The notes under the pieces were generated by a model. The model worked only from the letters and a program-made list of their open reading frames with translations, did no database searches and had not been told where the DNA came from. From the NCBI RefSeq assembly GCF_900129755.1, contig NZ_FQWT01000001.1, positions 186,001-250,000 on the forward strand: DNA of 64,000 nucleotides, written 5' to 3'. The stretch's first letter is position 1; each line of letters opens with the position of its first letter. Below, piece by piece: positions 18,955 to 62,609 of this stretch. Source of the stretch: Chryseobacterium oranimense. Lineage in GTDB: Bacteria; Bacteroidota; Bacteroidia; Flavobacteriales; Weeksellaceae. Both the position numbers and the translations under genes were made by a program.

Positions 18955-19116
18955 ATGAAAAATCAAAATTTAGCCAAAGGAAAAAAACTGAACAAAAAGC
19001 AATTAAGAAGCATTACAGGTGGATTAATGGACTGCATTGATCCTATGACCGGCGCCTGCAGCAAAATATCAATAGGCTGTGCACAGCTGCAATGCAGACC
19101 AGGAATAGAGCCTTAA
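18955..19116 (+). CDS. Orphan double-glycine-leader peptide (bacteriocin/RiPP-like precursor)
   Basis: A 53-residue ORF. Residues 1-23 form a basic leader ending in the double-glycine motif L-x4-L-x2-I-x-G-G (L12...L17, I20, G22-G23), the site cut by C39-peptidase exporters. The predicted core (24-53) has four cysteines at 27, 35, 42 and 47, plus several Pro and Gly. No modification enzyme or exporter is adjacent: its neighbours are an AraC gene and ychF, both on the other strand. It could be processed in trans by the C39 exporter at 41910-44120 (inference). It is followed by its own terminator, supporting a real transcript. Whether the cysteines form disulfides or are modified is unknown. 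Confidence 0.75.
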   Translation: MKNQNLAKGKKLNKKQLRSITGGLMDCIDPMTGACSKISIGCAQLQCRPGIEP

Positions 19117-37894: not shown

Positions 37895-40273
37895 ATGAGC
37901 TTTAAATTTCTTTGGCTTGCATTTTTTTGCTGCTTACCGGAATTTATATTTTCTCAAAACTATTCCATAAGCGGAAGAAGTGTTGAGGAAAATAAAGCGA
38001 TTGCTTATGCTTCATTAGTTCTAAAAAAAGATTCAGTAACAATCTCAGAAATCATATCAGATAGTATCGGGAATTATAAGTTCAGTGACCTTACTTCGGG
38101 ACATTATACTCTTTATGGAAGTTACTTGGGAATTAATATCCAAAAAGAAATTAACCTTACACAAAATCTGATACAAAACATAAACTTTCCTTCCGGAACT
38201 AACCAGATAGAAGAAGTAAGGATGACAGGAAAAAAGGCTTTGATTGAGCGAAAAGTTGACCGCCTGATCTTCAATGTGGAAAATTCCACTGCTGCTGCGG
38301 GAGGTGATGTAATGGATGTTCTTAGGGTCGCTCCACGAGTGAAGGTTCAGAATGACCAGATCTCAATGGTTGGCAAGAGTGGCTTATCCGTTATGGTGGA
38401 TGAAAGAATCATCCAGCTTACCGGTGATGATCTCATCAATTATCTAAAAACCATAAAGTCCGAAAATATAAAAAGTATTGAAATCATTACCCTGCCGCCT
38501 TCCAAATATAATGCGGAAGGAAACAGCGGAATTGTCAATATAAAAACAAAAAAGGCAAAATCCAATTCATGGAACGGAAATATCAGCACTACTTACAAAC
38601 AAGCAACATATGCTACGGGTTCAGGTTCTGCGTCCTATAACATGAAAAAAGATAAAATAACATTAAGCAGCTCGGCTTCATACATATATGGTTCGCTAGG
38701 TCCTACAGAAAGCAATAAAATTTACTACCCGGACCTGATATGGCAGGAAACAAATAACAGAAGAGACCGGACTAATTCTGCTTCATTCAATGTAGGACTG
38801 GATTATGAAATTTCCAAAAAATGGTCTATGGGGTTAGTATTTAACCATGCTAACAACAAGCCTGTTGTATTTGACAATAATATCAGTCAGCTGACTGATA
38901 CAGCAGGCAATAACATAGATTCACTTTTTATAACAAAGGGCAGAAATGAAAGAAAAAGAATTTCCAACCAGTTAAATTATCACGTTGTCTATCTGATAGA
39001 CTCTGTAGGACGAAAGCTTTCTCTGGACTACGACTTTTTCAATTATGTCAATGATTCCTATCGACCGTTTAACACAATAAAAACATTCTCGGGAAATTCG
39101 GTTCCTTTAACTTCTGCCATTAATAAAGGAGAACAGAATATCCGCAACAATTCCATTAATATCGATATGGAGCATCCGCTGGAGTGGATCAAGCTAAATT
39201 ATGGTGCCAGAGCATCTTTTATCACAACTGAAAATGATTTTAAATACTTTAAGGTTAACGATAATACCACAGAGCTAGATATTAATCAAAGTAATCTTTT
39301 CAACTATACAGAAAACACACAATCGTTGTATTTTTCAGGGTATAAAAAGATAGCTGATGAATGGGAAATTAAATTGGGGATGAGAATGGAAAACACTCAA
39401 ACCGAAGGTATTTCCGCAACGTTACAGGAAAGAAACAAAATGAAATTCACTAAATTTTTCCCAACTCTGTATGTTGTATACACCCCTAATAAAGACAATT
39501 CCCTTTCCATTAATTATGGAAGACGGATCCAAAGACCTTCTTATAATTTTCTAAATCCTTTCCGATGGATAACCTCACCATATATGTACTCGGAAGGAAA
39601 TCCTTTTTTACAGCCTTCGTTTACCGATAATATTGAATTGGGATACAGCTATAAAAACAATTATAACACAAATCTGTATTTTACTTATATAGATAAGGGC
39701 TTCGGACAGGTTACATTTTTAGATTCAAGTACAAATATTCAGCGTATATATCCGATTAATTATTTAGTGAACAAAACGATAGGTCTTAACCAGACCTTTT
39801 CTATAAATCCAGTTTCCTGGTTAAGCGCTAATTTAATTGTTGATATTTATTACAGTTATGCAAAATCTGAGATTGAAGCATTACTCCCGTCACTAAAAGG
39901 CTGGAATGGTGAATTTACTTTCAATACAGATATTATTTTTAATAAAAACAAAACTTTTTTTGCAAATATTAATTTTTTATATGTCACAGCAGGAACACTA
40001 GGTCTTGATAAAAATACAGCTTATAATCAACTTGATATTTCACTAAAAATGCTCTTGCTAAACAAAAAGCTTGTTTTGTCTCTACATTTAAATGATATGC
40101 TCAGCTCTAACCGTCCTACATATACAACATATACCAACTCGATTAAAAATTCAATTACCAATTATTACGATGACAGATTTGTAAGGTTCTCAATGTCTTA
40201 CAATTTTGGAAAATCTTTTAGTAATAAGATGAGAAAAGAAAAAAATACTGAAGAATTTAATCGGGTCAGATAA
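37895..40273 (+). CDS. Outer-membrane beta-barrel (TonB-dependent receptor superfamily) protein
   Basis: A 792-residue exported protein. After the signal peptide (to about residue 20, I-F-S-Q) comes a CarboxypepD_reg-like sandwich (about 22-105), then a plug-like domain (about 112-225, with G-G-D-V-M-D-V-L-R-V-A-P and S-I-E-I-I-T-L-P-P-S-K-Y-N-A-E-G-N-S-G-I-V-N-I-K). A long barrel of the OMP_b-brl_3 type runs to the C-terminus (Y-N-F-G-K-S-F near the end). Unlike SusC it has no partner SusD. It lies directly upstream of a double-glycine peptide gene and its export and modification genes, so it may move the mature peptide across the outer membrane or bind it (inference). Confidence 0.88.
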   Translation: MSFKFLWLAFFCCLPEFIFSQNYSISGRSVEENKAIAYASLVLKKDSVTISEIISDSIGNYKFSDLTSGHYTLYGSYLGINIQKEINLTQNLIQNINFPSGTNQIEEVRMTGKKALIERKVDRLIFNVENSTAAAGGDVMDVLRVAPRVKVQNDQISMVGKSGLSVMVDERIIQLTGDDLINYLKTIKSENIKSIEIITLPPSKYNAEGNSGIVNIKTKKAKSNSWNGNISTTYKQATYATGSGSASYNMKKDKITLSSSASYIYGSLGPTESNKIYYPDLIWQETNNRRDRTNSASFNVGLDYEISKKWSMGLVFNHANNKPVVFDNNISQLTDTAGNNIDSLFITKGRNERKRISNQLNYHVVYLIDSVGRKLSLDYDFFNYVNDSYRPFNTIKTFSGNSVPLTSAINKGEQNIRNNSINIDMEHPLEWIKLNYGARASFITTENDFKYFKVNDNTTELDINQSNLFNYTENTQSLYFSGYKKIADEWEIKLGMRMENTQTEGISATLQERNKMKFTKFFPTLYVVYTPNKDNSLSINYGRRIQRPSYNFLNPFRWITSPYMYSEGNPFLQPSFTDNIELGYSYKNNYNTNLYFTYIDKGFGQVTFLDSSTNIQRIYPINYLVNKTIGLNQTFSINPVSWLSANLIVDIYYSYAKSEIEALLPSLKGWNGEFTFNTDIIFNKNKTFFANINFLYVTAGTLGLDKNTAYNQLDISLKMLLLNKKLVLSLHLNDMLSSNRPTYTTYTNSIKNSITNYYDDRFVRFSMSYNFGKSFSNKMRKEKNTEEFNRVR

Positions 40274-40357
40274 AGATATTTCTTGCAAGAAAAGACCCAT
40301 AAGAGCTCCATGTCTATAAACTATAGCTCATAATTTTAAATTTTAAATTTTATAACA

Positions 40358-40510
40358 ATGAAAAACAAATCATTCAACGCAAAGAGTTTTCTAAATGCAA
40401 AAACTTTGTCACCACTAGACGAAAGCAAAATCAGAGGCGGATTATCTGCTGACGGAGTAAAAGTAAGTGTTAAAGAAACTGTTAAAGAAACAGTTACTGA
40501 GACTAACTAA
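40358..40510 (+). CDS. Double-glycine-leader precursor peptide (candidate RiPP)
   Basis: A 50-residue ORF. The leader (1-28) ends with L17-S18-x2-D21-E22-x2-I25-x-G27-G28, close to the LSxxELxxIxGG consensus cut by C39 peptidases. The predicted 22-residue core (29-50) starts L-S-A-D-G-V-K-V-S and then has three tandem units V-K-E-T (38-41), V-K-E-T (42-45) and V-T-E-T (46-49), ending in Asn50. It has no Cys. Directly downstream are a terminator, a JmjC-type oxygenase and a C39 exporter, which gives strong context for a modified, secreted peptide. Lys, Thr, Glu and Val of the repeats are possible modification sites. Confidence 0.85.
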   Translation: MKNKSFNAKSFLNAKTLSPLDESKIRGGLSADGVKVSVKETVKETVTETN

Positions 40511-40526
40511 TCAGCTTTATATTCAG

Positions 40527-40558
40527 GGCAATAGAATCTTGTATTCTATTGCCTTTTT
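40527..40558 (+). terminator. Terminator/attenuator after the precursor gene
   Basis: Perfect 11-bp stem GGCAATAGAAT/ATTCTATTGCC with a five-base loop and TTTTT. It lies 16 bases after the precursor stop and 37 before the oxygenase start. Partial read-through would make the peptide more abundant than its enzymes, a common RiPP arrangement. Confidence 0.9.
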
Positions 40559-40594
40559 ATATTTATACTCAAATCAAAAAAACAAAATAAAACT

Positions 40595-41866
40595 ATGAAC
40601 CTGGATAAACAATGGTGGGAAAATTTCACCCAGACCAATCAAAATTTTAGGAAAACATGTGTTATTAATGATGTTCTTTCTGCAGAAGAGATTGAAAATC
40701 TGACTAATGCAATAAATGAAGCATTGCTTGAAAAGCTGAAATCCGGAGAAAAGGGAGGGTTTCGTTTATATTTCCCTGAGGAAAATGCTGCCAAAGTAAA
40801 CAATAAATATAAGGACAAGATGTTTACGGATCACCCTCAGCCTGGTGAAACATTGCAGGAGTATTTTAAAAGATCCTTTGGTCAGAAATTCGGTATCATA
40901 TTTAATGCAGCAGAAAGATATTCCCCATATATTGCTGAAAAATTAATGATGTTTACCAAACCGCTTATTGATACCATCGGTTTACCAGCTGCCGGAATGC
41001 ATGCTACAGTATTTATTGGAGATTACGGATGGACTCCCCTTGGCATACACCAGGATCACAAAGGAGCCAATGTTATCCATTTTCATCTGGGACCGGGGGA
41101 AAAAACAATGTATACCTGGGAAGAAAATAAGTATAAAGAGCTTACAGGAGGAAAGCAAAATAACCACGACATCACCCCACTTTTAGAAGAAGCAGAGGTA
41201 TATACTTTTGGGACCGGAGATTTATATTATATGCCATGGGATCAGTTCCATATCGGCAAGAATGATGAATATTCGATTGGTATTACTTTCTGGTTCAACA
41301 ACCCAACCAAAGCCACTTATTTTGATAATGTGATGAATACTTTTTATACTCAATATATTGATGATAATAATGAAGAAGTAATTAATCCGCAGAAAGAGTA
41401 TGCTAAAAACCCAACCACATTTGATGATGTTATGACACTTTTTAAGTCTGATGAGATCATGAGCATGTCTGTAAAAGATTTTTTTCAGCGTATCCACTCA
41501 GATTATAAGTACAGTCTTATCAGCAACCATGGCTGGGAAAATACCCCGCAAACCCGTAAGCAACTTGATCAATATGAAATTGATGATTACGATCACCTAA
41601 AATCGAAAACAATAAAAGCTCCTCAGCCATTTAAAATTATTTACGATAATTCAAACGAAGATTCATTTGTATTTTATGTAAGAGGGTACAAAATGGAAAT
41701 CAGAAAAAACAATTTCCTTCCCGAAATCATTGATAAAATAAATTCTTTTGAACACGTAAACACCGAGGATTTGCTTGCCAATATAAATTCCGAATGGCCT
41801 GAAGAGGCAGGACTCTATTTCTTATCCATGATTTACGACAAAAGAGGATTCGATGTAGTACATTAA
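40595..41866 (+). CDS. JmjC/cupin-type 2-oxoglutarate-Fe(II) oxygenase, candidate peptide-modifying enzyme
   Basis: A 423-residue protein. A double-stranded beta-helix core (about 100-240) holds the iron triad: H152-x-D154 in G-I-H-Q-D-H and H219 in W-D-Q-F-H-I-G. The 67-residue spacing is close to that of JmjC ribosomal oxygenases (YcfD, MINA53). The C-terminal 80 residues (from about 340) read as three strands then helices (F-V-F-Y-V-R-G-Y-K-M-E-I, L-P-E-I-I-D-K-I-N, F-L-S-M-I-Y-D-K-R-G-F), a winged-helix pattern shared by ribosomal oxygenases and PqqD-like RiPP recognition elements. Between a precursor peptide and its exporter, it likely hydroxylates or otherwise oxidises the peptide (inference). 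A ribosomal-protein substrate is the alternative. Confidence 0.78.
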   Translation: MNLDKQWWENFTQTNQNFRKTCVINDVLSAEEIENLTNAINEALLEKLKSGEKGGFRLYFPEENAAKVNNKYKDKMFTDHPQPGETLQEYFKRSFGQKFGIIFNAAERYSPYIAEKLMMFTKPLIDTIGLPAAGMHATVFIGDYGWTPLGIHQDHKGANVIHFHLGPGEKTMYTWEENKYKELTGGKQNNHDITPLLEEAEVYTFGTGDLYYMPWDQFHIGKNDEYSIGITFWFNNPTKATYFDNVMNTFYTQYIDDNNEEVINPQKEYAKNPTTFDDVMTLFKSDEIMSMSVKDFFQRIHSDYKYSLISNHGWENTPQTRKQLDQYEIDDYDHLKSKTIKAPQPFKIIYDNSNEDSFVFYVRGYKMEIRKNNFLPEIIDKINSFEHVNTEDLLANINSEWPEEAGLYFLSMIYDKRGFDVVH

Positions 41867-41909
41867 GCAGCATTATACTGTGAAGAGATTTTAACACCCG
41901 ACATTAACT

Positions 41910-44120
41910 ATGCATTTTATTCCACAAAAAGATCAGATGGATTGTGGACCAGCATGTCTTGCCATGATAGCAAGACATTATGGTAAATCTTATTCTTTAA
42001 ACTATTTACGGGATCATTCTTTCATTTCCCGCGAAGGAGTCTCTTTATCGGGTATAAGTGAAGCTGCAAAATCTATTGGTATTGAAGCTGCTTCTTACTC
42101 CATCTCATTGGATGAGCTGAATCAGCATCAGAGTTTCCCCAGTATTATTCACTGGAATCAAAATCACTTTGTAGTACTTTACGCTATCAGAAAATCCCTG
42201 TTTACGGGGAAGAAAATATATAAAATTGCCGACCCCTCCCATGGATTGCTCTCATTATCTGAGGACAGATTCAAAAAATCCTGGATATCAAAAGATAATA
42301 AAGAGGGTATTGCTATGTATCTATCCCCTACAGATAATTTTTTTTCTGCAAAAGTTCATAATGAAAAAGAATTATCCATATCATTTTTATATAAATACCT
42401 CGTTCCTCACCGTAGTAAAATAGCATTATTATTTCTCTTACTGTTTGTTGGCACACTTATAACATTGATATTTCCGATTCTAACACAAAAATTGATCGAC
42501 GACGGGGTTGAGCCAAAAAATCTCAAAATCATTACCTATATTTTACTTGGCCAACTTTCTTTTTTCCTTGGAAATATAATTCTCAGTATCCTGAGAAACT
42601 GGATTCTTTTAGCAGTGGGAACTCAAATTAATATCCAGATTATTTCAGACTTTTTCAAAAAACTGTTGTTGCTTCCGGTTAAATTTTTTGATACGAGAAT
42701 GATGGGAGACTTTAATCAGCGGATTCAGGATCATGAGCGGATTGAACAGTTTTTAACGTCACAAGGTATCACTACTCTATTTTCGATACTTGTCTTCTCT
42801 GTATTTTTCGGAGTGCTCTGGTTTTATGATTTCCGGATTCTTATTGTTTATGTAGCCCTTACCTTTTTATCTGTAATATGGTCTTTAATCTGGATGAAAA
42901 AGCGTAAATCTCTTGATTATTTTCGCTTTCAGCAGCAAAGTCAGAACCAACAGTCCAATTTTGAAATATTAAACGGGGTTACCGAGCTTAAAATAAATCA
43001 ATACGAGACTTTAAAACTCCGCCAATGGGAAGAAATCCAGCACAAATTATATGATATCAATATGCGGATCCTTAAAAATGATCAGATACAGGTAGCAGGA
43101 TTTGACTTTCTAAATCAGTTAAAAAATATTCTGGTCACTTTTCTTGCCGCATCATTTGTTGTGAGCGGAAAAATGACTTTAGGTGGACTTTTGAGCGTTT
43201 CTTACATCATAGGACAGATGAATTCACCGGTCGCTCAGCTGATAGGCTTCTTCCGTTCTTTACAGGAAGCCAAATTAAGCTTATCCCGTCTAAATGAAGT
43301 TCAGAATCATCCTGATGAGGAACAAGCCAATTTAAAGCCATTGGATTTAAATACATTAAATTATAATGGAACTCAAGCAAAAAAGGGAATCCGCCTGAAC
43401 AATATTTCATTTCAGTACGAAGGCCCGAAATCTCCTTTCGTATTAAAAGACATTGATATTTTTATTCCTGAAGGAAAAATCACAGCTATCGTAGGATCCA
43501 GCGGCAGCGGAAAGACAACGCTTATGAAACTGCTTTTAAGATTTTATGATCCTACAGCCGGCGAAATCTTATATAACGATGATAATATACTTTCGCTATC
43601 TCCCAAAAGTATCCGGGAAAACTGCGGAGTAGTGATGCAGGACGGCTATATTTTTTCAGATACTATAAAAAGAAATATTGCAACGGGTGATGAACATATT
43701 GATACGCAGAAGCTTCATAATTCAGCCCGGATTGCGAATATTGAATCTTTTATTCTAAGTAATCCGTTGGAATATGAAACCAAAATCGGGGCCTCAGGAA
43801 ATGGGATATCGGGCGGGCAAAAGCAGCGGATTTTAATTGCAAGAGCGGTATATAAAAATCCTCATTATATTTTTTTTGATGAGGCAACGAGCGCGCTGGA
43901 TGCGGATAATGAAAAAATCATACACAATAATCTTCAGTCCTTTTTCAAGGATAAAACAGTAGTTATTATTGCGCACCGTCTGTCTACGGTAAAAAATGCG
44001 GATCAGATTATTGTTTTAAAAGACGGACAGGTTTCTGAACTCGGACACCATAATTATTTGGTGGAAAAGAAAGGAGAATATTTCAGCCTAGTTAAAAACC
44101 AACTGGAACTGGGAGCATAA
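41910..44120 (+). CDS. C39-peptidase-containing ABC exporter (PCAT type)
   Basis: A 736-residue protein with three parts in order. The N-terminal C39 cysteine peptidase (1 to about 130) has the full triad Cys12 (Q-M-D-C-G-P-A-C), His86 (N-H-F-V-V-L) and Asp108 (I-A-D-P-S-H-G). A six-helix ABC transmembrane domain follows (about 165-445). The nucleotide-binding domain has Walker A G-S-S-G-S-G-K-T-T (about 528-536), signature I-S-G-G-Q-K-Q-R, Walker B I-F-F-D-E-A-T-S-A-L-D and the H-loop I-A-H-R-L-S. It should cut the precursor after its double glycine and export the core. No HlyD-type adaptor or TolC is encoded nearby. Confidence 0.95.
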   Translation: MHFIPQKDQMDCGPACLAMIARHYGKSYSLNYLRDHSFISREGVSLSGISEAAKSIGIEAASYSISLDELNQHQSFPSIIHWNQNHFVVLYAIRKSLFTGKKIYKIADPSHGLLSLSEDRFKKSWISKDNKEGIAMYLSPTDNFFSAKVHNEKELSISFLYKYLVPHRSKIALLFLLLFVGTLITLIFPILTQKLIDDGVEPKNLKIITYILLGQLSFFLGNIILSILRNWILLAVGTQINIQIISDFFKKLLLLPVKFFDTRMMGDFNQRIQDHERIEQFLTSQGITTLFSILVFSVFFGVLWFYDFRILIVYVALTFLSVIWSLIWMKKRKSLDYFRFQQQSQNQQSNFEILNGVTELKINQYETLKLRQWEEIQHKLYDINMRILKNDQIQVAGFDFLNQLKNILVTFLAASFVVSGKMTLGGLLSVSYIIGQMNSPVAQLIGFFRSLQEAKLSLSRLNEVQNHPDEEQANLKPLDLNTLNYNGTQAKKGIRLNNISFQYEGPKSPFVLKDIDIFIPEGKITAIVGSSGSGKTTLMKLLLRFYDPTAGEILYNDDNILSLSPKSIRENCGVVMQDGYIFSDTIKRNIATGDEHIDTQKLHNSARIANIESFILSNPLEYETKIGASGNGISGGQKQRILIARAVYKNPHYIFFDEATSALDADNEKIIHNNLQSFFKDKTVVIIAHRLSTVKNADQIIVLKDGQVSELGHHNYLVEKKGEYFSLVKNQLELGA

Positions 44121-45779: not shown

Positions 45780-46940
45780 TTACGATAAGACCGAATATTC
45801 TTTCTTATTTGAAAAAACATCAATCATTACCTTTGCAATTCTTTCTTTGTCCTCGTCAGAAAGATTGGAACCTGAAGGCAGGCACAAACTGTTTCCAAAT
45901 AGCTCCTCAGCTACTTTACCACCATAATATGGGGCATCTTTGAATATCGGCTGAAGGTGCATTGGCTTCCAGATAGGCCGGGATTCTATGTCATCTTTCA
46001 GGAATGCCAGACGCAGGTCCTCATAATTTTTTGATGTCTTTGTTTCATCAATGGTAATAACAGACAACCAGTGATTGCTGTAGAAATCGGAATTAGGTTC
46101 TGAAAACAGCTCCACTCCCTCGAAATTCTTACAAAGCTCAGCATAAAAGCTATGTACACCCCTGCGGCCTTCCACTCTTTCGTGCAAAACTTCCATCTGT
46201 CCGCGTCCTATTCCTGCACTGATGTTACTCATTCTGTAGTTATACCCAATTTCAGAGTGCTGGTAATGTGGCGCTTTATCTCTAGCCTGTGTAGAGAGAA
46301 ATACAGTTTTATCTTTATCTGCCTGTGAATGGCACACCAACGCGCCTCCTCCTGAAGTTGTAATAATTTTGTTTCCGTTAAATGATAAAATACCAAAACG
46401 CCCAAAAGTACCACAAGCTTTTCCTTTATAGGTGGAGCCTAATGACTCGGCAGCATCCTCGATTAAAGGAATATCATATTTTGCAGCAATTGATAAAATT
46501 TCATCCATTTTTGCAGGCATCCCATAAAGATGTACTACAATGATCGCTTTGGGTTTTTTACCTTTTGAAATCCTGTCCTCTATAGCTTCCTGTAAAGCCT
46601 CCGGACACATGTTCCAGGTATCTTTTTCGGAATCGATAAATACGGGAACAGCTCCCAGATAAACGATAGGGTTAGCTGAGGCGGAAAAGGTCATCGACTG
46701 GCAAATAACTTCATCTCCATGACCTACATTGCACTCAATTAATGCCAGGTGTAAAGCAGCAGTTCCGGCAGAAAGTGCAGCTACTTTAACATCTTCATTC
46801 AGGAATTTCTCCAAATCCCGTTCAAAACCATCAACATTTGGTCCTAAAGGTGCTACCCAATTGGCATCAAATGCTTCTTTGATGTACTTTAATTCGCTTC
46901 CTCCCAAATGGGGAGATGAAAGCCATACTTTTGATTTCAT
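45780..46940 (-). CDS. DegT/DnrJ/EryC1/StrS (PglE-like) sugar aminotransferase
   Basis: A 386-residue PLP-dependent nucleotide-sugar aminotransferase. It has the N-terminal W-L-S-S-P-H-L-G-G-S-E-L-K-Y-I, A-A-L-S-A-G-T-A-A-L-H-L-A-L, L-I-E-D-A-A-E-S-L-G-S and the PLP lysine in S-F-N-G-N-K-I-I-T-T (Lys191). The P-H-L-G-G start is typical of enzymes that aminate UDP-4-keto-6-deoxy-GlcNAc, as in bacillosamine synthesis (PglE). It sits next to NeuD/PglD-like and PglC-like genes, and a PglF/CapD-like dehydratase lies at the other end of the locus, completing a diacetamido-trideoxyhexose pathway. Last gene of the locus. Confidence 0.9.
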   Translation of the reverse strand: MKSKVWLSSPHLGGSELKYIKEAFDANWVAPLGPNVDGFERDLEKFLNEDVKVAALSAGTAALHLALIECNVGHGDEVICQSMTFSASANPIVYLGAVPVFIDSEKDTWNMCPEALQEAIEDRISKGKKPKAIIVVHLYGMPAKMDEILSIAAKYDIPLIEDAAESLGSTYKGKACGTFGRFGILSFNGNKIITTSGGGALVCHSQADKDKTVFLSTQARDKAPHYQHSEIGYNYRMSNISAGIGRGQMEVLHERVEGRRGVHSFYAELCKNFEGVELFSEPNSDFYSNHWLSVITIDETKTSKNYEDLRLAFLKDDIESRPIWKPMHLQPIFKDAPYYGGKVAEELFGNSLCLPSGSNLSDEDKERIAKVMIDVFSNKKEYSVLS

Positions 46941-46958
46941 ATTTCTACTTTTACTATT

Positions 46959-47561
46959 CTATATTTTTAAACTTCTACTCTTTATTACTTTTCCGGGATT
47001 ACCTACTACGGTAGAACCATCCGGGACATCGCTAATAATAACAGCTCCTGCACCAATGGTGCACCATTTTCCGATTTCTATTCCCTGTATTACGCTGGCT
47101 CCGATACCGATATGGGTTCCTTCACCTACATATACATTTCCTGCCAGTGCCACATTGGGAGAAATATGGACAAAATCTTCCAGAATACAGTCGTGATCAA
47201 TGGAAGCGTTGGTATTGATGATACAATGCTTCCCTATTTTTACGGCTGCATTTACAGTTGCACCCGGCATTGCAACAGTACCCTCCCCGATCTTTACTCT
47301 TTTGGATATAACCGTCTTAGGGTGAATGAGGGTAACGTAGTTGAAGAGTTCAGCCTGTTTTACTATTCTTTTGCGCGTTTTATTATTTCCTATGGAAATA
47401 AGGATATCTATTTCATGTTGAGGAACCTCGTGAAGAACAGGATAGCTTAACACTCTCTCCTTCAAAGGATTTTCATCAATATAAGCTTCTATTTTGTAAC
47501 CGGTTTCTTCAGCTACTTCAGCTACCACTTTGCCATGACCACTTGCTCCGTATAAATACAT
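46959..47561 (-). CDS. NeuD/PglD-family sugar O/N-acetyltransferase
   Basis: A 200-residue protein. An N-terminal Rossmann-like part (Y-L-Y-G-A-S-G-H-G-K-V-V-A-E-V, about 2-16) precedes a left-handed beta-helix of hexapeptide repeats (G-E-G-T-V-A-M-P-G-A-T-V-N-A, then G-K-W-C-T-I-G-A-G-A-V-I-I, about 95-185). It includes the N-x-x-A-S-I-D-H-D catalytic His segment of PglD. It would transfer acetyl from acetyl-CoA to the amino sugar made by the adjacent aminotransferase. Confidence 0.9.
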   Translation of the reverse strand: MYLYGASGHGKVVAEVAEETGYKIEAYIDENPLKERVLSYPVLHEVPQHEIDILISIGNNKTRKRIVKQAELFNYVTLIHPKTVISKRVKIGEGTVAMPGATVNAAVKIGKHCIINTNASIDHDCILEDFVHISPNVALAGNVYVGEGTHIGIGASVIQGIEIGKWCTIGAGAVIISDVPDGSTVVGNPGKVIKSRSLKI

Positions 47562-47579
47562 ATTCTAACTACATTTAAA

Positions 47580-48185
47580 TTAATTATTTCCGTTAAAAAC
47601 TTCTGCAGTTGCCTGCCCTGCCTGGTTTATACCTTCCTTTTTTATTACTTTTTTTAAAGTAAGAAAGATCACCTTGCAGTCTGTTTCAAAAGACAAATGA
47701 TCTATATACCAGATGTCCAATTCAAATTTTTTAGTCCACGAAATAGCATTTCTTCCATTCACCTGTGCCCAGCCTGTAATTCCCGGCCGTATTGTATGTC
47801 TGCGTTTTTGAGATTCATTATATAAAGGGAGATATTGCGGCAGCAGAGGTCGCGGACCTATAAGCGCCATGTCTCCTTTTAATACATTGATCAGTTGTGG
47901 AAGCTCATCCAGGGAAGTCTGACGGATAAAACTTCCAACCGGGGTCAAGCGTTCCGAATCGGGCAGAAAATTGCCCTTTTCATCCTTTCTGTCATTCATC
48001 GTCTTAAACTTGATGATATGAAATATCTTTTCATTAAGTCCCGGTCTGGCCTGAAAGAAGAATGGTTTTCCCTGGTTGGCAAAATACAGCAGGATGGTAA
48101 CCACTATAAAAACAGGCGATAATAAGATCAGTCCTATTAAAGCGATCAGAAAATCTATCATCCTTTTAAAAAAAAATTTATACAC
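47580..48185 (-). CDS. Initiating sugar-phosphate transferase (PglC/WcaJ catalytic family)
   Basis: A 201-residue monotopic membrane protein. One N-terminal hydrophobic segment (about 8-35, with a helix-breaking Ser-Pro) precedes the catalytic part: F-K-T-M-N-D-R-K-D, then R-Q-T-S-L-D-E-L-P-Q-L-I-N-V-L-K-G-D-M-A-L-I-G-P-R-P and R-P-G-I-T-G-W-A-Q-V-N-G-R-N. It transfers a sugar-1-phosphate from UDP-sugar to undecaprenyl phosphate, starting each repeat unit. The short PglC-size form fits a bacillosamine-type first sugar. Its start overlaps the upstream glycosyltransferase by eight bases. Confidence 0.93.
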   Translation of the reverse strand: MYKFFFKRMIDFLIALIGLILLSPVFIVVTILLYFANQGKPFFFQARPGLNEKIFHIIKFKTMNDRKDEKGNFLPDSERLTPVGSFIRQTSLDELPQLINVLKGDMALIGPRPLLPQYLPLYNESQKRRHTIRPGITGWAQVNGRNAISWTKKFELDIWYIDHLSFETDCKVIFLTLKKVIKKEGINQAGQATAEVFNGNN

Positions 48186-49347
48186 GATATTCTCTTTCTT
48201 TAACCAGTTTATTATATTCTCCTAATAAAGCCTCCCAAACCAATGACTGCTCGTAACGGGACTGAATCATAGATCTTGCATTGATTTTTAACTGATCATA
48301 ATAATTCTGGTCCGACATTATTTTTGTCATTGCCTCTCTGAGCTTTTCACTATTTTTTACCGGAACAATTACTCCGTTCTGGTTTTCTATGATAATTTCA
48401 TTGCATCCGTTGATATCGGAAACAATACTTGGCAACCCCATTGCCCCCGCCTGCATCACTACATTGGGAAACCCTTCCCGATAACTTGGAAAAGCAAGTG
48501 CATGGGAAACCGCGAAATAAGGACGGACATCTTTCTGAAAACCTACAGAAAGGATATCGGGATTACGTTCTATTTCTTTCAGGGTGTCCGGATGCAACGG
48601 ATCCAGCTCCTGCTCCAGAGGACCTACCAACAATAATTTGGAACGACGCTGTGGATTTTCTGCCTTAGTTAAAAGAGAAAATGCTTCAACCAACTCATTA
48701 ATTCCTTTGTCGCCCACCAAACGGCCTACAAATACAAACACAAAATCTGTATCGTGTATGTCCAGTTCCTTTTTTAAATTTTCTTTCTGCTCATCAGTGA
48801 TCTGTTCAGGCGAGAAATAGTTCAGATCGATTCCATTCACATTCCCGTTCCCGATAACTTTTAAAGGCTTTGACGTGATTCTGTAATTGAGCAAATCCTT
48901 TTTAACACCCTCTCCTTCAGGATAAATATGGGTAGCCGCCCAACATAACAACTGATCCATACTGATAAGAAGCTTCTGCACCGCACCTTTTCTTGTAGGG
49001 AAAATAAGCCCCGTAAAAGTGTGGATACGGATAGGCACACCGGCAATCTTACCTGCCAGCATGGTTAAAAGTCCCGCTTTAGGAGTGATGGAATGCACAA
49101 TGACCGGTTTTTCTATTTTTAAAATTTTATACAATCGGCATAGAGAAACCAAGTCTTTCCAGGGACTTATTCCTCTTTCCATATTTACTTCAATCGTTTT
49201 TATACCTTCTCTCTGCTTCAGCTCGTCAAGCAAATGCCCTTCAGAAGTTATTCCCACAACTTCATAGAACTCATTGAGGAACTTTAACTGCCCTTTTAAC
49301 AGAACATTTAAAGACAATGGTATGGTTGATGTCCGAATTAGTTTCAT
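48178..49347 (-). CDS. Glycosyltransferase family 4 (GT-B fold)
   Basis: A 389-residue protein with the PglA/WbpH-like N-terminus (I-R-T-S-T-I-P-L-S-L, then H-S-I-T-P-K-A-G-L-L-T-M-L). The GT4 C-terminal signature is F-V-F-V-G-R-L-V-G-D-K-G-I-N-E-L and, later, F-P-S-Y-R-E-G-F-P-N-V-V-M-Q-A-G-A-M-G-L-P-S. PglA-type enzymes add GalNAc to the lipid-linked bacillosamine, so it may add the second sugar. It overlaps the sugar transferase start and follows the pyruvyltransferase by two bases. Confidence 0.9.
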   Translation of the reverse strand: MKLIRTSTIPLSLNVLLKGQLKFLNEFYEVVGITSEGHLLDELKQREGIKTIEVNMERGISPWKDLVSLCRLYKILKIEKPVIVHSITPKAGLLTMLAGKIAGVPIRIHTFTGLIFPTRKGAVQKLLISMDQLLCWAATHIYPEGEGVKKDLLNYRITSKPLKVIGNGNVNGIDLNYFSPEQITDEQKENLKKELDIHDTDFVFVFVGRLVGDKGINELVEAFSLLTKAENPQRRSKLLLVGPLEQELDPLHPDTLKEIERNPDILSVGFQKDVRPYFAVSHALAFPSYREGFPNVVMQAGAMGLPSIVSDINGCNEIIIENQNGVIVPVKNSEKLREAMTKIMSDQNYYDQLKINARSMIQSRYEQSLVWEALLGEYNKLVKEREYRV

Positions 49348-49349
49348 GT

Positions 49350-50675
49350 TTAGTATAAGGATTGAATATCTTTCAACAATCTATTTCTGCTTTCTGTAAC
49401 CAGGCTCATCGACTGGTCCAGCTTCGATTTTATATGATCGTATTCTGAAATTGCCTGATCAAACATCTTGATCAGCAAATCAGGCTGCACATCCTGAATC
49501 TGAACTACATAATCATCCAGATTAAAGTCTCCCATTATGCCCAAGGCCTTGTTTCCTCCATATCCTATGGCAATGGAAGGAACCAGAGAGGTCAGTGAAA
49601 ATATAATGGAATGAAAACGGGTCCCCACGAAAAAGTAGAAATTGGAATAAACCGCTTTCAGTATATCGCAGGATAAATTCTCATTGATCCAGATGATATT
49701 GGGATCCTGAATCTTGTCAAGTAAATCTCTTATAGCATTACGGTCATCTTCATGAGAATTCGGACCTAATGACTGGTTACACAATGCTACTTTATATCCT
49801 TTATCCAACAAATGCTTCGTAAGGGCTACCACTGAGTCTATGTATTTTTTGTACAGCGCTTCCGGATTCGACAGACCGGGAAAACGCCATGGACGGATCG
49901 TCACTCCTACAATTTTGTCCTCTTTTGTCAGATTATATTTCTGCAATATCTTTAGTGCCTCATCCTGGCTTCCTTTTTCCAGGAAAAATCCAAGATCCAT
50001 TTCTACAGGGATATTTTTTTCCAGCAACTGACCTAAGCTTTTTGAAGAAACATTCTCACGCGCATAAACCAAATCCAACTGGTTGAATACGGTGCGCACC
50101 TGCTGTTTAACTGTCAGTCCAATAAAAGGTCCATATGAATTAGGAAGGAAGACAACTTTCTTTCCTAATGCTTTGGCAAGCCTTACATAAAACAAGAAGT
50201 ACCACATTAGGTAAGGTGCTGTTTTTTCGCCATAAGCATGGATAAAACCGCCTCCTTTTACAAAAATGGTTTTTGCTTCATGAAACTGTTTAACCGTTTG
50301 GTAGGTTTTATCATCAAAGGATTTTTTTACTTTTTCCAGATCATTGCATATTTTAATTAAATGCCTGGTATTTTTAAAATCCATTCCTGCATTTCTAATT
50401 TGCTTTAAAAGCTCAAGTTTGGATTCTTTTATATGCTGATCAGCCTTATGCTGTCCTCTTCTGGGATGCTTTAGTATATTGGCCAACAACTTAAAACCAT
50501 GATCCTCGGACTGTTGACACAACAATGCTCTTTCTTCGTCATTTTCACCTGCGTCCAGTATATATACTTCATCATAAAGTCCGGTATCTTTTGCCAGCCT
50601 CCAACTTTCCCAGACCAATGCCTGATCTCCTTTATTCAAATCCGTTACTCCCGGTACTATAATAGCATTATTCAT
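49350..50675 (-). CDS. Polysaccharide pyruvyl transferase family protein
   Basis: A 441-residue cytoplasmic protein of the WcaK/CsaB family. Family segments are the N-terminal D-L-N-K-G-D-Q-A-L-V-W-E, F-V-K-G-G-G-F-I-H-A-Y-G, L-P-N-S-Y-G-P-F, V-G-V-T-I-R-P-W, and F-F-V-G-T-R-F-H-S-I-I-F-S. It would add a pyruvate ketal from phosphoenolpyruvate to a sugar of the repeat unit, giving an acidic polymer. Length is normal. It is tightly packed between two glycosyltransferase genes. Confidence 0.9.
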   Translation of the reverse strand: MNNAIIVPGVTDLNKGDQALVWESWRLAKDTGLYDEVYILDAGENDEERALLCQQSEDHGFKLLANILKHPRRGQHKADQHIKESKLELLKQIRNAGMDFKNTRHLIKICNDLEKVKKSFDDKTYQTVKQFHEAKTIFVKGGGFIHAYGEKTAPYLMWYFLFYVRLAKALGKKVVFLPNSYGPFIGLTVKQQVRTVFNQLDLVYARENVSSKSLGQLLEKNIPVEMDLGFFLEKGSQDEALKILQKYNLTKEDKIVGVTIRPWRFPGLSNPEALYKKYIDSVVALTKHLLDKGYKVALCNQSLGPNSHEDDRNAIRDLLDKIQDPNIIWINENLSCDILKAVYSNFYFFVGTRFHSIIFSLTSLVPSIAIGYGGNKALGIMGDFNLDDYVVQIQDVQPDLLIKMFDQAISEYDHIKSKLDQSMSLVTESRNRLLKDIQSLY

Positions 50676-50676
50676 T

Positions 50677-51588
50677 CTATATCAATTTTCCTTGTTTAAT
50701 CCTGTGTGTATTTTGCTTTACTTTGCGGCTGATGTATACGTTCAGCAATACGCCGAAGGGAATAGCTATTAACGTATACAACTTATTAGGAGAGCCTTTA
50801 AAAAAATTCCATTTTTTGGCAAAAAGACAAGAGGATATATAGTGTATTGAGTTCTTCAGCACAACTTTTTTGTTGATCCCATACTTCATTTTTATTTTTC
50901 TGTATTCAATAAATGAGTTGGGGCTGTCTTTATATCTTTTATATAATCCGTTGGACAATCCGTCCTGTTGGTATTCTATAATGCAATATATTTCGTTTGA
51001 AAGAAGAAATTTATGATTCTGGTCAATCAGGGTAAAGATCCAGCTGACTTCATGAAAAATTTCATTTTCAAAATAAGGATACGGCAGGTACTTTTTATAG
51101 ACTTCCGTATCAAAAATATATTTTTTGTCACCTTTGATTTTGTAGAGGTCTACCAATTCAGAATAGGTGGATTCTTTTTTATCAGGTAATTGTTCACCCG
51201 CTACAGAACCATCTTCATAAGCATCCAGACCGATGATTCCGGCAGAATCGGCTTTTTTATTAGCCTTCCAGAATCTCAGTATTTTTTCAACGGCATCATC
51301 CGGTATATAATCATCAGAGTCGATACATGTAAATAATTCAGTATCTATATAGTTTAAAGCTAAAATCTGGGCCGCCAGCTTTCCTTTATTCTTCTGATAG
51401 TAGTATTGTATTTCTATTTTACCTTCTTCTATCCACTGCTGAACCTTGTCGGAGGTATGATCGCCGGAGCCGTCATCCACAATGATCCATTTGAAATCAG
51501 GATTACTCTGACTGCATAAAGAGTTATAAAGTCTTCCTAAAGTCTTTTCTCTGTTAAAAGTTGGTGTAAAAATGGTGATAGACTTCAT
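50677..51588 (-). CDS. Glycosyltransferase family 2 (GT-A fold)
   Basis: A 303-residue protein. The GT2 core is at the N-terminus: I-F-T-P-T-F-N-R-E-K-T-L (6-17), W-I-I-V-D-D-G-S-G-D-H-T, and the metal-binding C-I-D-S-D-D-Y-I-P-D (about 93-102). It transfers a sugar onto the growing lipid-linked unit; donor and linkage cannot be told. It overlaps the upstream gene by four bases (ATGA type). Confidence 0.9.
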   Translation of the reverse strand: MKSITIFTPTFNREKTLGRLYNSLCSQSNPDFKWIIVDDGSGDHTSDKVQQWIEEGKIEIQYYYQKNKGKLAAQILALNYIDTELFTCIDSDDYIPDDAVEKILRFWKANKKADSAGIIGLDAYEDGSVAGEQLPDKKESTYSELVDLYKIKGDKKYIFDTEVYKKYLPYPYFENEIFHEVSWIFTLIDQNHKFLLSNEIYCIIEYQQDGLSNGLYKRYKDSPNSFIEYRKIKMKYGINKKVVLKNSIHYISSCLFAKKWNFFKGSPNKLYTLIAIPFGVLLNVYISRKVKQNTHRIKQGKLI

Positions 51589-52751
51589 GATGCACTCAAT
51601 TTTTTAAAGATTTTATCAAACTCCTCTACCTGGTTTTTCTTATCATAGTTATTGACGATCAATGCTTTTCCATTACCGGCAATAAAATTATACAGGTCCC
51701 TGTCATAGTATAGCTTACAGATGTACTCATAATAATCGTCTACATTATTATGGGTAGCGATATAGCCTGTAAAGTTGTGCAGGATATAATCTGTGACCCC
51801 TCCCACCGGATTGGCAATAACAGGAATTTCAAATGCCAAAGCTTCCATAATTACACGGGGTAATCCCTCAGTATCAGATGGATGAATGAGAATATCGCTG
51901 CTTTTAAAAATGCTGTATGGATCTTTCTGATTGAGCAGAATTTCTACATGACTGTCAAGTTTATACTGGCTAATCTCTGTGCGGATCTTATTTAAAAAAT
52001 TCTCTGACACAGGGGTATCATATACGGCCCCCATCAGGATGATTTTAAAATTAATGTTATTATCCTTTAATTTTCTGGCTAAAGAAATTGACAGATCCTG
52101 CCCTTTTGCCGGTAAAAAACCACCGCAATGTAAAATCACTACAGGATCGCCTTCCTTACGTGCTACCCGTTCTCTTTTGTACTGTTCAACTTTCGTTAAA
52201 TCAATTGCATTAGGTACAACAAATATTTTTTCTAACGGAGCCAAACCTCCTGTATAAATTGCCTGTCTTGTAGATTGAGATACTCCGATAAAGTAATCGG
52301 AATTATACTTAAACATCAGCTTTTTAAGAAAGCCTATCGAATTATAAGCGAACCAGCCTCTTGCAAAATATGCGATCTTATAATTTTTCCCTTTCTTTAG
52401 AATCGAATTGGTTTTGATATTATTAATAATAACCACATCCGGTTTAAAGGTGTTCTGAAATTTTTTAAATTCTTTTTTCAGCCTCACCCAATCCAATAAA
52501 AACGAAATAATGTTTACCCCAATTTTAAAGGGATTTTTGGTACTAAAAATCGCAATAGGACTATCGTTCTTCTTTAAAATATGTATTGGGATTTTATTGG
52601 CCTGTACATCTTCTACAAACTCACTGCAACTCCCCCAGAAATCTACGATAACCGAATTATGCCCCTCTTCATTTAGTCGTTTCGCCAATTCTATGGTACT
52701 TTTACGAGCACCACCATGAATTTGAACGGCTTCAAGGAAAATTATATTCAT
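51585..52751 (-). CDS. Glycosyltransferase family 4 (GT-B fold)
   Basis: A 388-residue GT-B enzyme. N-terminal G-G-A-R-K-S-T-I-E-L-A binds the acceptor side. The donor-binding part has V-V-I-L-H-C-G-G-F-L-P-A-K-G-Q-D-L-S and the E-x7-E region I-H-P-S-D-T-E-G-L-P-R-V-I-M-E-A-L-A-F-E-I-P-V. It is the first gene after an internal promoter (53029-53058) with a leader of roughly 270 bases. Confidence 0.9.
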   Translation of the reverse strand: MNIIFLEAVQIHGGARKSTIELAKRLNEEGHNSVIVDFWGSCSEFVEDVQANKIPIHILKKNDSPIAIFSTKNPFKIGVNIISFLLDWVRLKKEFKKFQNTFKPDVVIINNIKTNSILKKGKNYKIAYFARGWFAYNSIGFLKKLMFKYNSDYFIGVSQSTRQAIYTGGLAPLEKIFVVPNAIDLTKVEQYKRERVARKEGDPVVILHCGGFLPAKGQDLSISLARKLKDNNINFKIILMGAVYDTPVSENFLNKIRTEISQYKLDSHVEILLNQKDPYSIFKSSDILIHPSDTEGLPRVIMEALAFEIPVIANPVGGVTDYILHNFTGYIATHNNVDDYYEYICKLYYDRDLYNFIAGNGKALIVNNYDKKNQVEEFDKIFKKLSAS

Positions 52752-53125
52752 TTTTATATCACTTTCATTATTGTTATATAATTAGATAAAAATTGAGTTA
52801 TAAGTTTTTTTTAAAGCTAAGTTTCACATGAATCAATAACCATCATCCCTTCAGGGCTAAAAGCCTGAAAATGTTATGATTATTTTCAATAATTAAAATG
52901 ATTTTTTTTCAAATCTGTGTGTGCAGATATCAATAGCGATGTAACAAAAATTATCTTTAAAATAATGCAATTATTTAATTAATTTGTTACAATAATCACA
53001 TTATGAATGAATTTTCTACTACATAAAACAAATATACAAAAAAATAATATCTCACAAATATTTGAATCAAAGTTTATTTTCAATAACTTAAGCAAAAAAT
53101 TAAAATTTACACTCAAATATTAAAT
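52752..53125. other. AT-rich gap and long leader inside the polysaccharide locus
   Basis: No ORF. It contains the promoter at 53029-53058 and, near 52850-52873, an imperfect hairpin made of TTCAG-G-GCT and AGC-CTGAA arms. The hairpin lacks a T-run in either direction, so it is not an obvious terminator. It may be a leader structure or an extragenic repeat. Confidence 0.5.
53029..53058 (-). promoter_or_regulatory. Internal promoter of the polysaccharide locus
   Basis: On the minus strand TTTG (53055-53058), an 18-base spacer, TATATTTG (53029-53036): exact matches to both Bacteroidetes elements with ideal spacing. It drives the seven genes from 52751 to 45780. Confidence 0.78.
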
Positions 53126-54154
53126 TTATGTGAACTCATTTAAAAAATTATGAACAATTTCATATTCCAGATTCACCTTAGATTCATTCCAATTGAGGGC
53201 TGGATCGAAGAATCCCTGGCACTGATCATAAACATACGGCTGAAATCCATAACTGATTTCTACCATTAAAGGCCGGTCTTCAGAATCAAATATAAAATCG
53301 TACGCAACGCATATCATTTTCAGCTGCCGGGCAGTTTTAAATGCGATATCCACTGCTTCAAGATTGAATTTTCCCGGTGCAAATTCCAGCCTGCCACTGC
53401 CGGATGCCCTGAAATCATTATCCCTGGTATTTCTTTTAAGATAATAGCACTTATCCCCAATTACAATAAGCCTTATATCATAAGTCAGTCCCGGGATAAA
53501 TTCCTGGAAATAGACATAATTTCTCTGTTTAGGAAAAACCTTGTATTGTCGATCTACAAAAATCCCTTTGAATCCCCATTTCAGGACTCTGAGAAAATTG
53601 TGTGTGGTCTTCTGCCTCCAGAATCTCTCGATCGTATCAGTAAAAACCGTCCAGGAATCAAATGCAGCAAACCCGCTTCCAAATGCCTGGTTTACGATTT
53701 TTCTGGCCTGGCTTTTCGTTTTAATAAGCTTTACATTAATGGATCCCGCCCCACCTTTTAATTTAAAGACTTTCGGAAAAGATGTCTTTTCTATATACTC
53801 TTCCGCTTCTTTCTTATGGTAAAAAACATCTGCCTTTACCAACGGTACTTCCAATGCTTCCAAAAGATATTTCTGGGCCACTTTATCATCAAAATGCCAA
53901 TAGGCGTCTTCACTCGGAAATGTCTTTATCCCGATCTGGCTGATGGATCTGAACAAGGTTCTCGCATGCAGCATATCTTCATAATAATTCTGGTTGAAAT
54001 GCCACATAAAGTGGGTTACCTGATGTTCTTTTACCTGTGCAATGATATCATTATCAAAGGCATTTAATAAAACATACGGTATATTTTTCTCTTCCAGATA
54101 CTCGATCCAGCGATCGGAAAAACTTCCTTTACGGTGATGTATTGCTATCTTCAT
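53126..54154 (-). CDS. ATP-grasp (RimK-like) protein in the polysaccharide locus
   Basis: A 342-residue cytoplasmic protein. The N-terminal part is Rossmann-like. An ATP-grasp core follows: the lysine-bearing strand V-F-K-L-K-G-G-A-G-S-I-N-V (about 131-143), Q-E-F-I-P-G-L-T-Y-D-I-R-L-I-V-I-G-D (about 225-242), and the Mg-binding A-Y-D-F-I-F-D and V-E-I-S-Y-G-F segments. The family joins carboxylates to amines or other nucleophiles at the cost of ATP. In this setting it may attach an amino acid to a uronic-acid residue or precursor (inference). It overlaps the flippase gene by four bases. Confidence 0.8.
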   Translation of the reverse strand: MKIAIHHRKGSFSDRWIEYLEEKNIPYVLLNAFDNDIIAQVKEHQVTHFMWHFNQNYYEDMLHARTLFRSISQIGIKTFPSEDAYWHFDDKVAQKYLLEALEVPLVKADVFYHKKEAEEYIEKTSFPKVFKLKGGAGSINVKLIKTKSQARKIVNQAFGSGFAAFDSWTVFTDTIERFWRQKTTHNFLRVLKWGFKGIFVDRQYKVFPKQRNYVYFQEFIPGLTYDIRLIVIGDKCYYLKRNTRDNDFRASGSGRLEFAPGKFNLEAVDIAFKTARQLKMICVAYDFIFDSEDRPLMVEISYGFQPYVYDQCQGFFDPALNWNESKVNLEYEIVHNFLNEFT

Positions 54155-55389
54155 TTCTTCTTTCTAAAAAATTTATAAAATAATCCTCCACCCATTATGC
54201 ATCTGGCTAAAGACAAATTAATAGCAGCTCCCAATACAGAGTAAAAATGAATCAGGGGGTATGCCAAAATAAAACCTAAAACAGAAGCAAATAAGGTATT
54301 CGTCATGACTAATTTATCCTGGCGGTGAACAATAAAATAATTGAGCCCGAAAATATTATAGAGGGTATAACCAAACAATCCTATGGCCAGTATCAACAGT
54401 ATCCAGAATGCATTTTCGTAGTTCACATTCAGATACCAGAAGATTAATTTATTAAAAACCAATACTCCGATGATCATAATGCTTATGGTGATCAGCATCA
54501 TATTTTTGTACCATTGGAAGGCATCTTTTTTACGGTTCAGGAATGGAAAGAACACGCGGGAAAGAATTTCAATCAGGGTAACAATAAGATTCACTACCGT
54601 TAAAATAGCCTGATAAATCCCCACCAATTTCGGCGTTCCTAAAATTCCCAGCAGGAAAGTACTGGTGTTATTATACAGGTTAGGCACAAACTGGTTGATG
54701 AAAATCGGTGAGTTTGTTTTTATGGTTTTAATGATCAGTTTATAAGGCAGGAAAATGAATTTCAGCTTATATTTCTTTACCAGCACATACTGCCCCACCA
54801 AACCTGCTCCTACATAACCTGCACTTTGCAGCAGAGGATAGATCCAGAAATCACTTTCTTTTTTAATAAAAATAAAAACACACAGCGTAAAAAACAGTTT
54901 AATCCCCAGGTTCAGATAGGTAATGTAACGCATTTTTTCAATGCCCTGAAAGAACCATTCCGGGAATAATACATAGCCCAGCAAAAGGAGACTTGTATAA
55001 AAATAAATTTCCTTGTTTTCGTAAAAAGGCGGATACAGGAAGACTGCAATGGCAATAATAAGCCATGAAAGCAGCAGGAAAAGAGTTTTAATGGTTAAGA
55101 CCTTACTGTAAATGATATTAAGCTTTTTCGGGCTGTCCCGGTAAATAGCCACATCGCGGGTAGCCGTGATCCTGAAACTGAAATCCGTTAAAGCCGTAAA
55201 ATAAGCAATAAGCGATGCTGAAAAAACAATAACTCCATATTTTTCAAAGCCGATTACCCTTAAGATATAAGGCAGGGTAACCAGTGGCAACAACATTCCT
55301 ATTAACTGCAATGCAGATAACGAAACGAAGTTTTCCAACAGCGCCTTCTTGTCTTTCGTATTAAAAATCTTTTTTATCCTGTTCACCAT
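54151..55389 (-). CDS. wzx: Oligosaccharide flippase (Wzx)
   Basis: A 412-residue membrane protein with about 12 helices. It belongs to the MOP/PST superfamily, as shown by the N-terminus F-V-S-L-S-A-L-Q-L-I-G-M-L-L-P-L-V-T-L-P-Y-I-L-R-V-I-G. It moves undecaprenyl-linked repeat units to the periplasmic face. Its start codon overlaps the stop of the upstream beta-helix lipoprotein gene, and it overlaps the ATP-grasp gene by four bases downstream, indicating one tight operon. Confidence 0.93.
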   Translation of the reverse strand: MVNRIKKIFNTKDKKALLENFVSLSALQLIGMLLPLVTLPYILRVIGFEKYGVIVFSASLIAYFTALTDFSFRITATRDVAIYRDSPKKLNIIYSKVLTIKTLFLLLSWLIIAIAVFLYPPFYENKEIYFYTSLLLLGYVLFPEWFFQGIEKMRYITYLNLGIKLFFTLCVFIFIKKESDFWIYPLLQSAGYVGAGLVGQYVLVKKYKLKFIFLPYKLIIKTIKTNSPIFINQFVPNLYNNTSTFLLGILGTPKLVGIYQAILTVVNLIVTLIEILSRVFFPFLNRKKDAFQWYKNMMLITISIMIIGVLVFNKLIFWYLNVNYENAFWILLILAIGLFGYTLYNIFGLNYFIVHRQDKLVMTNTLFASVLGFILAYPLIHFYSVLGAAINLSLARCIMGGGLFYKFFRKKK

Positions 55390-57862: not shown

Positions 57863-57935
57863 CAGGCTGCTTACTTCTCAGTTTAAATAAATAGTATAAT
57901 ACGGTACAAACATTTCACAACGGAACAAGTCCGGA

Positions 57936-57978
57936 AAAGCCGGGAGAAAAAGCAACTTTAGCCTCTTCTCCCGGCTTT
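57936..57978 (-). terminator. Terminator after the UDP-sugar dehydrogenase gene
   Basis: Stem AAAGCCGGGAGAA/TTCTCCCGGCTTT (13 bp) with a 17-base loop, seven bases after the dehydrogenase stop and 74 before the polymerase start. The T-run on the minus strand is short, so partial read-through is plausible. Confidence 0.72.
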
Positions 57979-57984
57979 ATTATA

Positions 57985-59277: not shown

Positions 59278-59298
59278 AAAAAGTCTATTTAAACTTGT

Positions 59299-60267: not shown

Positions 60268-60269
60268 TT

Positions 60270-62606: not shown

Positions 62607-62609
62607 ATT

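Follow-up and report, generated by a model that had tools for sequence, protein, structure and literature searches.

A conserved gene set linking a predicted JmjC-fold oxygenase to double-glycine precursor peptides in Chryseobacterium and related Bacteroidota

A short gene cluster in a 4.6-Mb Chryseobacterium genome places a predicted oxygenase between a 50-residue peptide with a double-glycine (GG) leader and a peptidase-containing exporter. This arrangement raises the question of whether the genes form a pathway for a ribosomally synthesised and post-translationally modified peptide (RiPP), and whether the oxygenase is the enzyme that modifies it. The analysed DNA was a stretch of 64 kb, referred to here as the window, and coordinates are positions on its forward strand unless another locus is named. 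The four consecutive plus-strand genes reported in a preliminary description were all recovered as open reading frames (Table 1), and no further plausible gene was found among the window ORFs between them.

Table 1. Features of the cluster in the window, and small proteins of related poly-Gln loci (positions preceded by the locus number).
Feature	Position	Strand	Basis
TonB-receptor-like outer-membrane barrel (OMP_b-brl_3), optional partner	37895-40273	+	792 aa ORF; Pfam PF14905
Precursor peptide	40358-40510	+	50 aa ORF; leader conserved, GG end
Precursor leader MKNKSFNAKSFLNAKTLSPLDESKIRGG, 28 aa, predicted cut after GG	40358-40441	+	invariant leader residues; C39 specificity
Precursor core LSADGVKVSVKETVKETVTETN, 22 aa, repetitive, Cys-free, predicted substrate region	40442-40507	+	sequence; family low complexity
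Terminator-like hairpin directly 3' of precursor gene, perhaps an attenuator	40525-40555	+	13 pairs, T run
JmjC-fold oxygenase, predicted Fe(II)/2OG	40595-41866	+	423 aa; H152, D154, H219, K170; AF2 fold
C-terminal RRE-like winged helix (bbb-aaa), predicted leader-binding domain of oxygenase	41606-41863	+	domain model
Peptidase-containing ABC exporter (C39 + ABC)	41910-44120	+	736 aa; Pfam; C12/H86/D108
Small proteins	L034:8740-9171, L035:8777-9208, L045:10823-11224, L048:10378-10737, L051:7286-7729, L062:10183-10560

The exporter combines a peptidase domain (Peptidase_C39, 112.6 bits) with transmembrane and ATPase domains (ABC_membrane and ABC_tran, both above cut-off), and the Cys-His-Asp triad previously called intact was found in full. 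The barrel matched OMP_b-brl_3 (PF14905) with 287.9 bits and TonB_dep_Rec more weakly. A known major RiPP enzyme within the cluster was considered and rejected, as Pfam searches of the four genes and the translations revealed no LanB, LanC, radical SAM, YcaO or ATP-grasp protein. Likewise, no MNIO, B12 radical SAM or arginase was detected by Pfam among the four genes, the neighbouring translations being judged by eye. Elsewhere in the window, a second short ORF with a GG leader and Cys in its core (MKNQNLAKGKKLNKKQLRSITGGLMDC...) was observed at 18955 (+), distant from the cluster, and a long locus of polysaccharide type by eye, with glycosyltransferases, an aminotransferase, a flippase and a chain-length protein, occupies 45780-63401 (-).

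The JmjC label of the oxygenase rests on fold and not on sequence family, because its score against Pfam JmjC_2 (PF08007) is 15.4 bits against a gathering cut-off of 22, and a PF08007 search of the window's genome picks a different gene. Among six homologs, five matched this model below the cut-off and one had no match. Fold comparison was used because a sequence search of the PDB gave nothing useful. The AF2 model (pLDDT 92.4) shows a confident JmjC fold, and its best matches were YcfD, followed by NO66 and MINA53, over the full length, comprising the JmjC domain and a C-terminal winged helix. The iron triad H152, D154 and H219, earlier described as intact, was found in the window oxygenase and is invariant across a 26-row alignment, as is K170, the probable 2OG ligand from its motif. 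The earlier assignment to the JmjC type thus stands by fold and by the HxD...H triad, but not by Pfam family score, and the protein is predicted to be a JmjC Fe(II)/2OG enzyme. A PHROGs search gave no result, and no NCBIfam model scored above cut-off for the precursor, the oxygenase or five precursor relatives.

A single-sequence contig scan with the oxygenase returned one close relative only, from Chryseobacterium sp. BLS98, which at 97% is the closest among the matches listed; whole-genome profile searches took its place. Profile A1, representing the oxygenase, matched 16 of 173 genomes of the genus. In samples that overlap one another, it also matched 9 of 166 genomes in the genus of G794 (seven of them distant), 1 of 9 in the genus of G352 and, with the top few candidates scored per genome and misses possible, at least 21 of 316 family genomes, at least 11 of 395 order genomes (two distant) and at least 2 of 395 phylum genomes. 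Of the 26 loci read from the close clade, the genus contributed 16 and other genomes nine, and the last lies on a Bergeyella plasmid with its genes in pieces. A precursor lies upstream on the same strand in all 25 loci where this can be tested, and a C39 exporter follows the oxygenase downstream in every testable locus as well (25 of 25); L061 begins within the oxygenase and has no upstream, while L059 stops before any exporter. Precursor positions were taken by hand from ORF lists, L001 and L031 were taken as one genome and counted once, and L046 held no oxygenase ORF. The check proposed in the preliminary description, a genome search for the oxygenase beside GG-leader ORFs and C39 transporters, accordingly came out in its favour. 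Profile A2, for the precursor, picked out exactly these 16 genomes among the 173 of the genus; since it was built partly from those 16, the telling part is the other 157, which have neither gene.

As a control, ordinary JmjC loci of the genus were examined, 30 out of 66 JmjC_2 matches, some with shorter flanks. In none of the 30 did the flanks, up to 1.5 kb long, include a C39 exporter, and the two with a GG pattern had it within the JmjC stretch. When the script behind this control was run on 25 oxygenase loci with short flanks, it found the GG pattern and the exporter in 19 loci each; what it missed were two distant members, additional tandem copies and loci where genes intervene or do not fit the pattern. 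In 12 positive genomes, 12 of the 31 C39 matches adjoin the oxygenase; several of the remaining matches lie next to GG peptides that are Cys-rich and carry a different leader. Co-localisation by chance was rejected because the arrangement recurs throughout the testable loci, because the two genes occupy the same genomes of the genus, and by the JmjC_2 control. The gene set is real and conserved.

C39 peptidases cleave after GG, and the leader, which had been described as matching the double-glycine consensus, proved to be conserved through the GG in 16 aligned precursors, with M1, F11, L12, L20, G27 and G28 invariant and the cores diverging. Two elements of a RiPP system were therefore found, namely a ribosomal precursor with a conserved leader and a variable core, and a candidate modifying enzyme genetically linked to it (25/25 testable loci). 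A public search with the precursor yielded 77 proteins including itself, and the gene neighbourhood was seen for a minority of them. The core types were V/Q/R, T/V/K, poly-Gln, GSHHHDGRHHHD and VKKEKKK, with one CKCKCKCK core among the six tandem precursors of L166; repeats such as TVTVTV, poly-Gln, HHHDGRHHHD, KKEKKK and CKCKCK were observed. The median normalised entropy of the core was 0.63 (0.43-0.85) in 26 family precursors versus 0.85 (0.79-0.91) in 17 other GG precursors (p 1.5e-7), the latter being hand-picked, free of near-duplicates and of ORFs without a plain GG leader, and also longer (median 36 vs 24 residues). Cysteine makes up 1.1% of core residues in the same 26 precursors and 9.9% in the same 17. 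No target residue is common to all 93 cores; Val (87/93) and Asp (85/93) are the most widespread, and His and Cys occur in 12 and 10 cores, respectively.

The type of core follows the oxygenase clade. Core classes were named by eye before tree building, and 11 public oxygenases were included in the tree by pairing them to precursors on contigs of the same length. On this quickly built tree, which came with long-branch warnings, the core class of 34 labelled oxygenases requires five changes, the minimum possible, compared with a mean of 19.3 for shuffled labels (0 of 200 as low as five). Each core type forms one side of a branch, except T/V/K, which takes two changes. As the window's genus carries three core types, the pattern follows the enzyme and not the host genus. 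Inheritance of the cluster as a block would yield the same pattern without direct matching of enzyme and core.

A possible means of recognising the leader was observed at the C-terminus of the oxygenase. Residues 320-423 (41552-41863), folded alone, gave a model with pLDDT 89.7, in which strands 30-32, 38-43 and 46-51 are followed by helices 56-63, 71-75 and 84-96, the bbb-aaa order, with an extra short strand (20-22) ahead of them. The top Foldseek matches were TigE, PqqD and ThcOx, and RiPP enzymes or RiPP recognition elements (RREs) filled 19 of the 22 best rows (10 different proteins), with weak E-values. Pfam PqqD (PF05402) did not match residues 320-423 at E 10; RREs diverge in sequence. 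The domain weakly resembles RREs in its modelled fold, and for this reason the oxygenase may itself bind the leader of the precursor.

Beyond the three linked genes, the loci vary. The barrel, one of the four genes described at the outset, was rejected as a core part, since a P0004-like match occurs in only 12 of 26 loci and is absent in 14; one further locus, L048, has a barrel-like protein by eye. Tandem oxygenase copies were identified in L030 (two) and L047 (three). A module of ThiF (E1-like), LuxR and GNAT-like genes was observed upstream of the precursor in L026, L027, L029, L036, L047 and L166, and LuxR alone next to the precursor in L021-L025 and L028. ThiF and LuxR were confirmed by Pfam, and the GNAT-like label relies on a below-cut-off FeeM match together with similarity among loci. 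A role of the module in regulating the cluster, or in acylating the peptide, is conceivable. Because some relatives have two or three oxygenases or this upstream module, the proposal that the oxygenase is the sole tailoring enzyme fits the window cluster and would not necessarily extend to the family. In poly-Gln loci, small diverged proteins lie between precursor and oxygenase (Table 1). Several of them start with what looks by eye like a signal sequence, five of the six show recognisable similarity to the L034 protein, and an immunity function is possible. In L028, a transposase-like ORF (10320-11099, by eye) separates precursor and oxygenase.

With regard to expression signals, the hairpin after the window precursor (-15.9 kcal/mol, z -4.08) has by far the longest stem among the five terminator-like sites of the scanned region, where 3.5 were expected. 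In 17 of 25 loci the precursor gene is followed by a hairpin with a T run whose stem has at least nine pairs, a raw count without a shuffled control. Partial termination at such a site would give precursor in excess of enzyme. A scan for sigma-70-type promoters found 29, against 28.0 expected from shuffles.

Taken as a whole, the cluster is very probably a RiPP pathway of known general logic. We consider it likely that the oxygenase binds the leader and hydroxylates the repetitive core, and that the C39 exporter cuts after the GG and exports the product; modification of the peptide is a candidate activity of the enzyme. After gene expression, the leader would dock on the RRE-like C-terminal domain, and the JmjC site, using Fe(II), O2 and 2OG, would hydroxylate the core at one or more residues. 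The beta carbon (C3) would be the most likely position, in line with known JmjC hydroxylases, because those nearest in fold act there. YcfD acts at this position. The same is described for MINA53 and NO66 (PMC9994133). The exporter would then cleave after the double glycine and move the core out, to act outside the cytoplasm, and the barrel, dispensable in the family, may serve passage, uptake or immunity.

It is quite unlikely that the peptide is exported unmodified and that the oxygenase acts on the barrel, a ribosomal protein, a free amino acid or some other substrate. The case for this comes from distant relatives of the oxygenase (L049, L050, L052, L053, L054 and L167-L173) and from other GG peptides in these genomes, which adjoin C39 exporters with no such oxygenase near. 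No exporter match or family precursor is adjacent in L049 and L050, two loci from another family, or in L167-L173, seven loci from the genus of G794, three of which have GG peptides of a different type about 4 kb off. Three of 25 plasmid records (Nostoc, Streptomyces and Klebsiella) likewise have neither one adjacent, and a fourth that was read (Bergeyella) falls inside the clade. The relatives on the first three plasmids adjoin DUF3865, glycine amidinotransferase, arginase or an adenylation protein; no precursor was recognised there, and the neighbours hint at free amino-acid chemistry. Homologs lying mostly away from GG peptides, named in the preliminary description as evidence against a role on the peptide, were not the pattern within the clade (25/25 testable loci), although the more distant relatives do lie outside such clusters. 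Against an unrelated substrate also stand the 16 genomes that carry both genes, the barrel match missing from more than half of the loci and the repeat type that tracks the oxygenase clade. Since 2OG oxygenases are versatile enzymes, and the tandem copies of L030 and L047 point to more than a single reaction, the repeat might undergo another oxidation, for example desaturation, cross-linking or backbone oxidation. This is unlikely, as YcfD, NO66 and MINA53, to which the fold comes closest, are named hydroxylases, and both tested JmjC RiPP enzymes, BipG and PbsQ, are described as adding 16 Da to the peptide (PMC12707348, PMC12257519).

Assignment to a known RiPP class, such as a class I lanthipeptide whose main enzyme is encoded elsewhere and to which the oxygenase is accessory, appears very improbable. 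The window exporter is 64% identical to that of a LanB/LanC cluster in the same genus, and the NCBIfam lantibiotic leader model matches the precursor weakly (11.5 bits, cut-off 22); however, the window cluster contains none of the enzymes searched for above, LanB and LanC included, the family cores are nearly Cys-free, and the precursors adjoining that LanB carry a different leader. A question of function, on which the proposed pathway would still hold, is whether the product is a signal or a metal-binding peptide and not an antibacterial. This is a real possibility, if somewhat doubtful: the TonB-like barrel match (12/26 loci), a His-rich core type and the LuxR neighbours of 12 loci out of 26, six of which also have ThiF and GNAT-like genes, favour it, but His and Cys are confined to the few cores counted above, and neither LuxR nor GNAT-like genes have a match in the window locus.

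If the oxygenase decorates the peptide and the exporter cuts it, the family would represent a little-explored kind of bacterial natural product, made by a minimal one-enzyme pathway on unusual repeat cores (poly-Gln, TVTV, HHHDGRHHHD). Three genes would provide a simple genomic handle, transferable to E. coli with +16 Da steps as the readout, and the clades would amount to a ready-made set of enzymes, each suited to its own kind of repeat. A broader proposal, to which we give even chances, is that these clusters form a new Bacteroidota RiPP class in which one RRE-bearing ribosomal oxygenase hydroxylates near-homopolymeric cores repeat by repeat, each clade matched to its own chemistry (Thr-Val, poly-Gln, His-Asp, Lys-Glu or Cys-Lys), and in which the winged helix of ribosomal oxygenases and the RRE are one structural idea. 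Such a reading suggests kinship between the two domains, which would explain the turn from a ribosome-modifying to a peptide-tailoring enzyme.

The family and its core make-up are apparently new. The preliminary description did not recognise a described class, and no description of a Bacteroidota family joining a JmjC enzyme to GG precursors was found in open-licence PMC literature, but JmjC enzymes in RiPP pathways are known. BipG, BpmG and PbsQ are described as JmjC ornithine hydroxylases of biphenomycin-type RiPPs (PMC12707348, PMC12257519), with BipG hydroxylating a residue in the RiPP precursor (PMC12707348). They share with the window family the pairing of a JmjC Fe(II)/2OG oxygenase, here predicted, with a ribosomal precursor. 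BipG is, by its description, one of several enzymes (MNIO, B12 radical SAM, arginase and a TldD-type protease), whereas the window oxygenase is the sole candidate recognised in its cluster; the GG leader, C39 exporter and repetitive cores further separate the two. RRE-JmjC fusions were described by Bregman et al. 2025 (PMC12710340), who place the closest bacterial homologs (about 30% identity) in RiPP-like contexts and report eukaryotic proteins with no precursor nearby. The fusions resemble the window oxygenase in joining a JmjC domain to a bbb-aaa RRE-like domain; section 6 of that paper names no bacterial family or precursors, and its main text has no words starting with Bacteroid or Flavobacter. 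In proteusins, the 2OG oxygenase PoyI/EreI is assigned to hydroxylating Val (and N-methyl Asn) in the cores (PMC9505594), differing, by description, in a nitrile-hydratase-like leader and several more enzymes. Within the genus, L134/L141 hold a class I lanthipeptide cluster with LanB, LanC and five near-identical precursors, which shares the related exporter and GG leader type with the window cluster and differs in its enzymes and its Cys/Thr-containing cores. Finally, the oxygenase is like YcfD, NO66 and MINA53 in its full-length fold, JmjC domain and winged helix included, and unlike the ribosomal oxygenases in its low identity to YcfD (12-14%), its patchy distribution (16/173 genus genomes) and its linkage to a precursor gene, a context that argues for a peptide rather than a ribosomal protein as its substrate.
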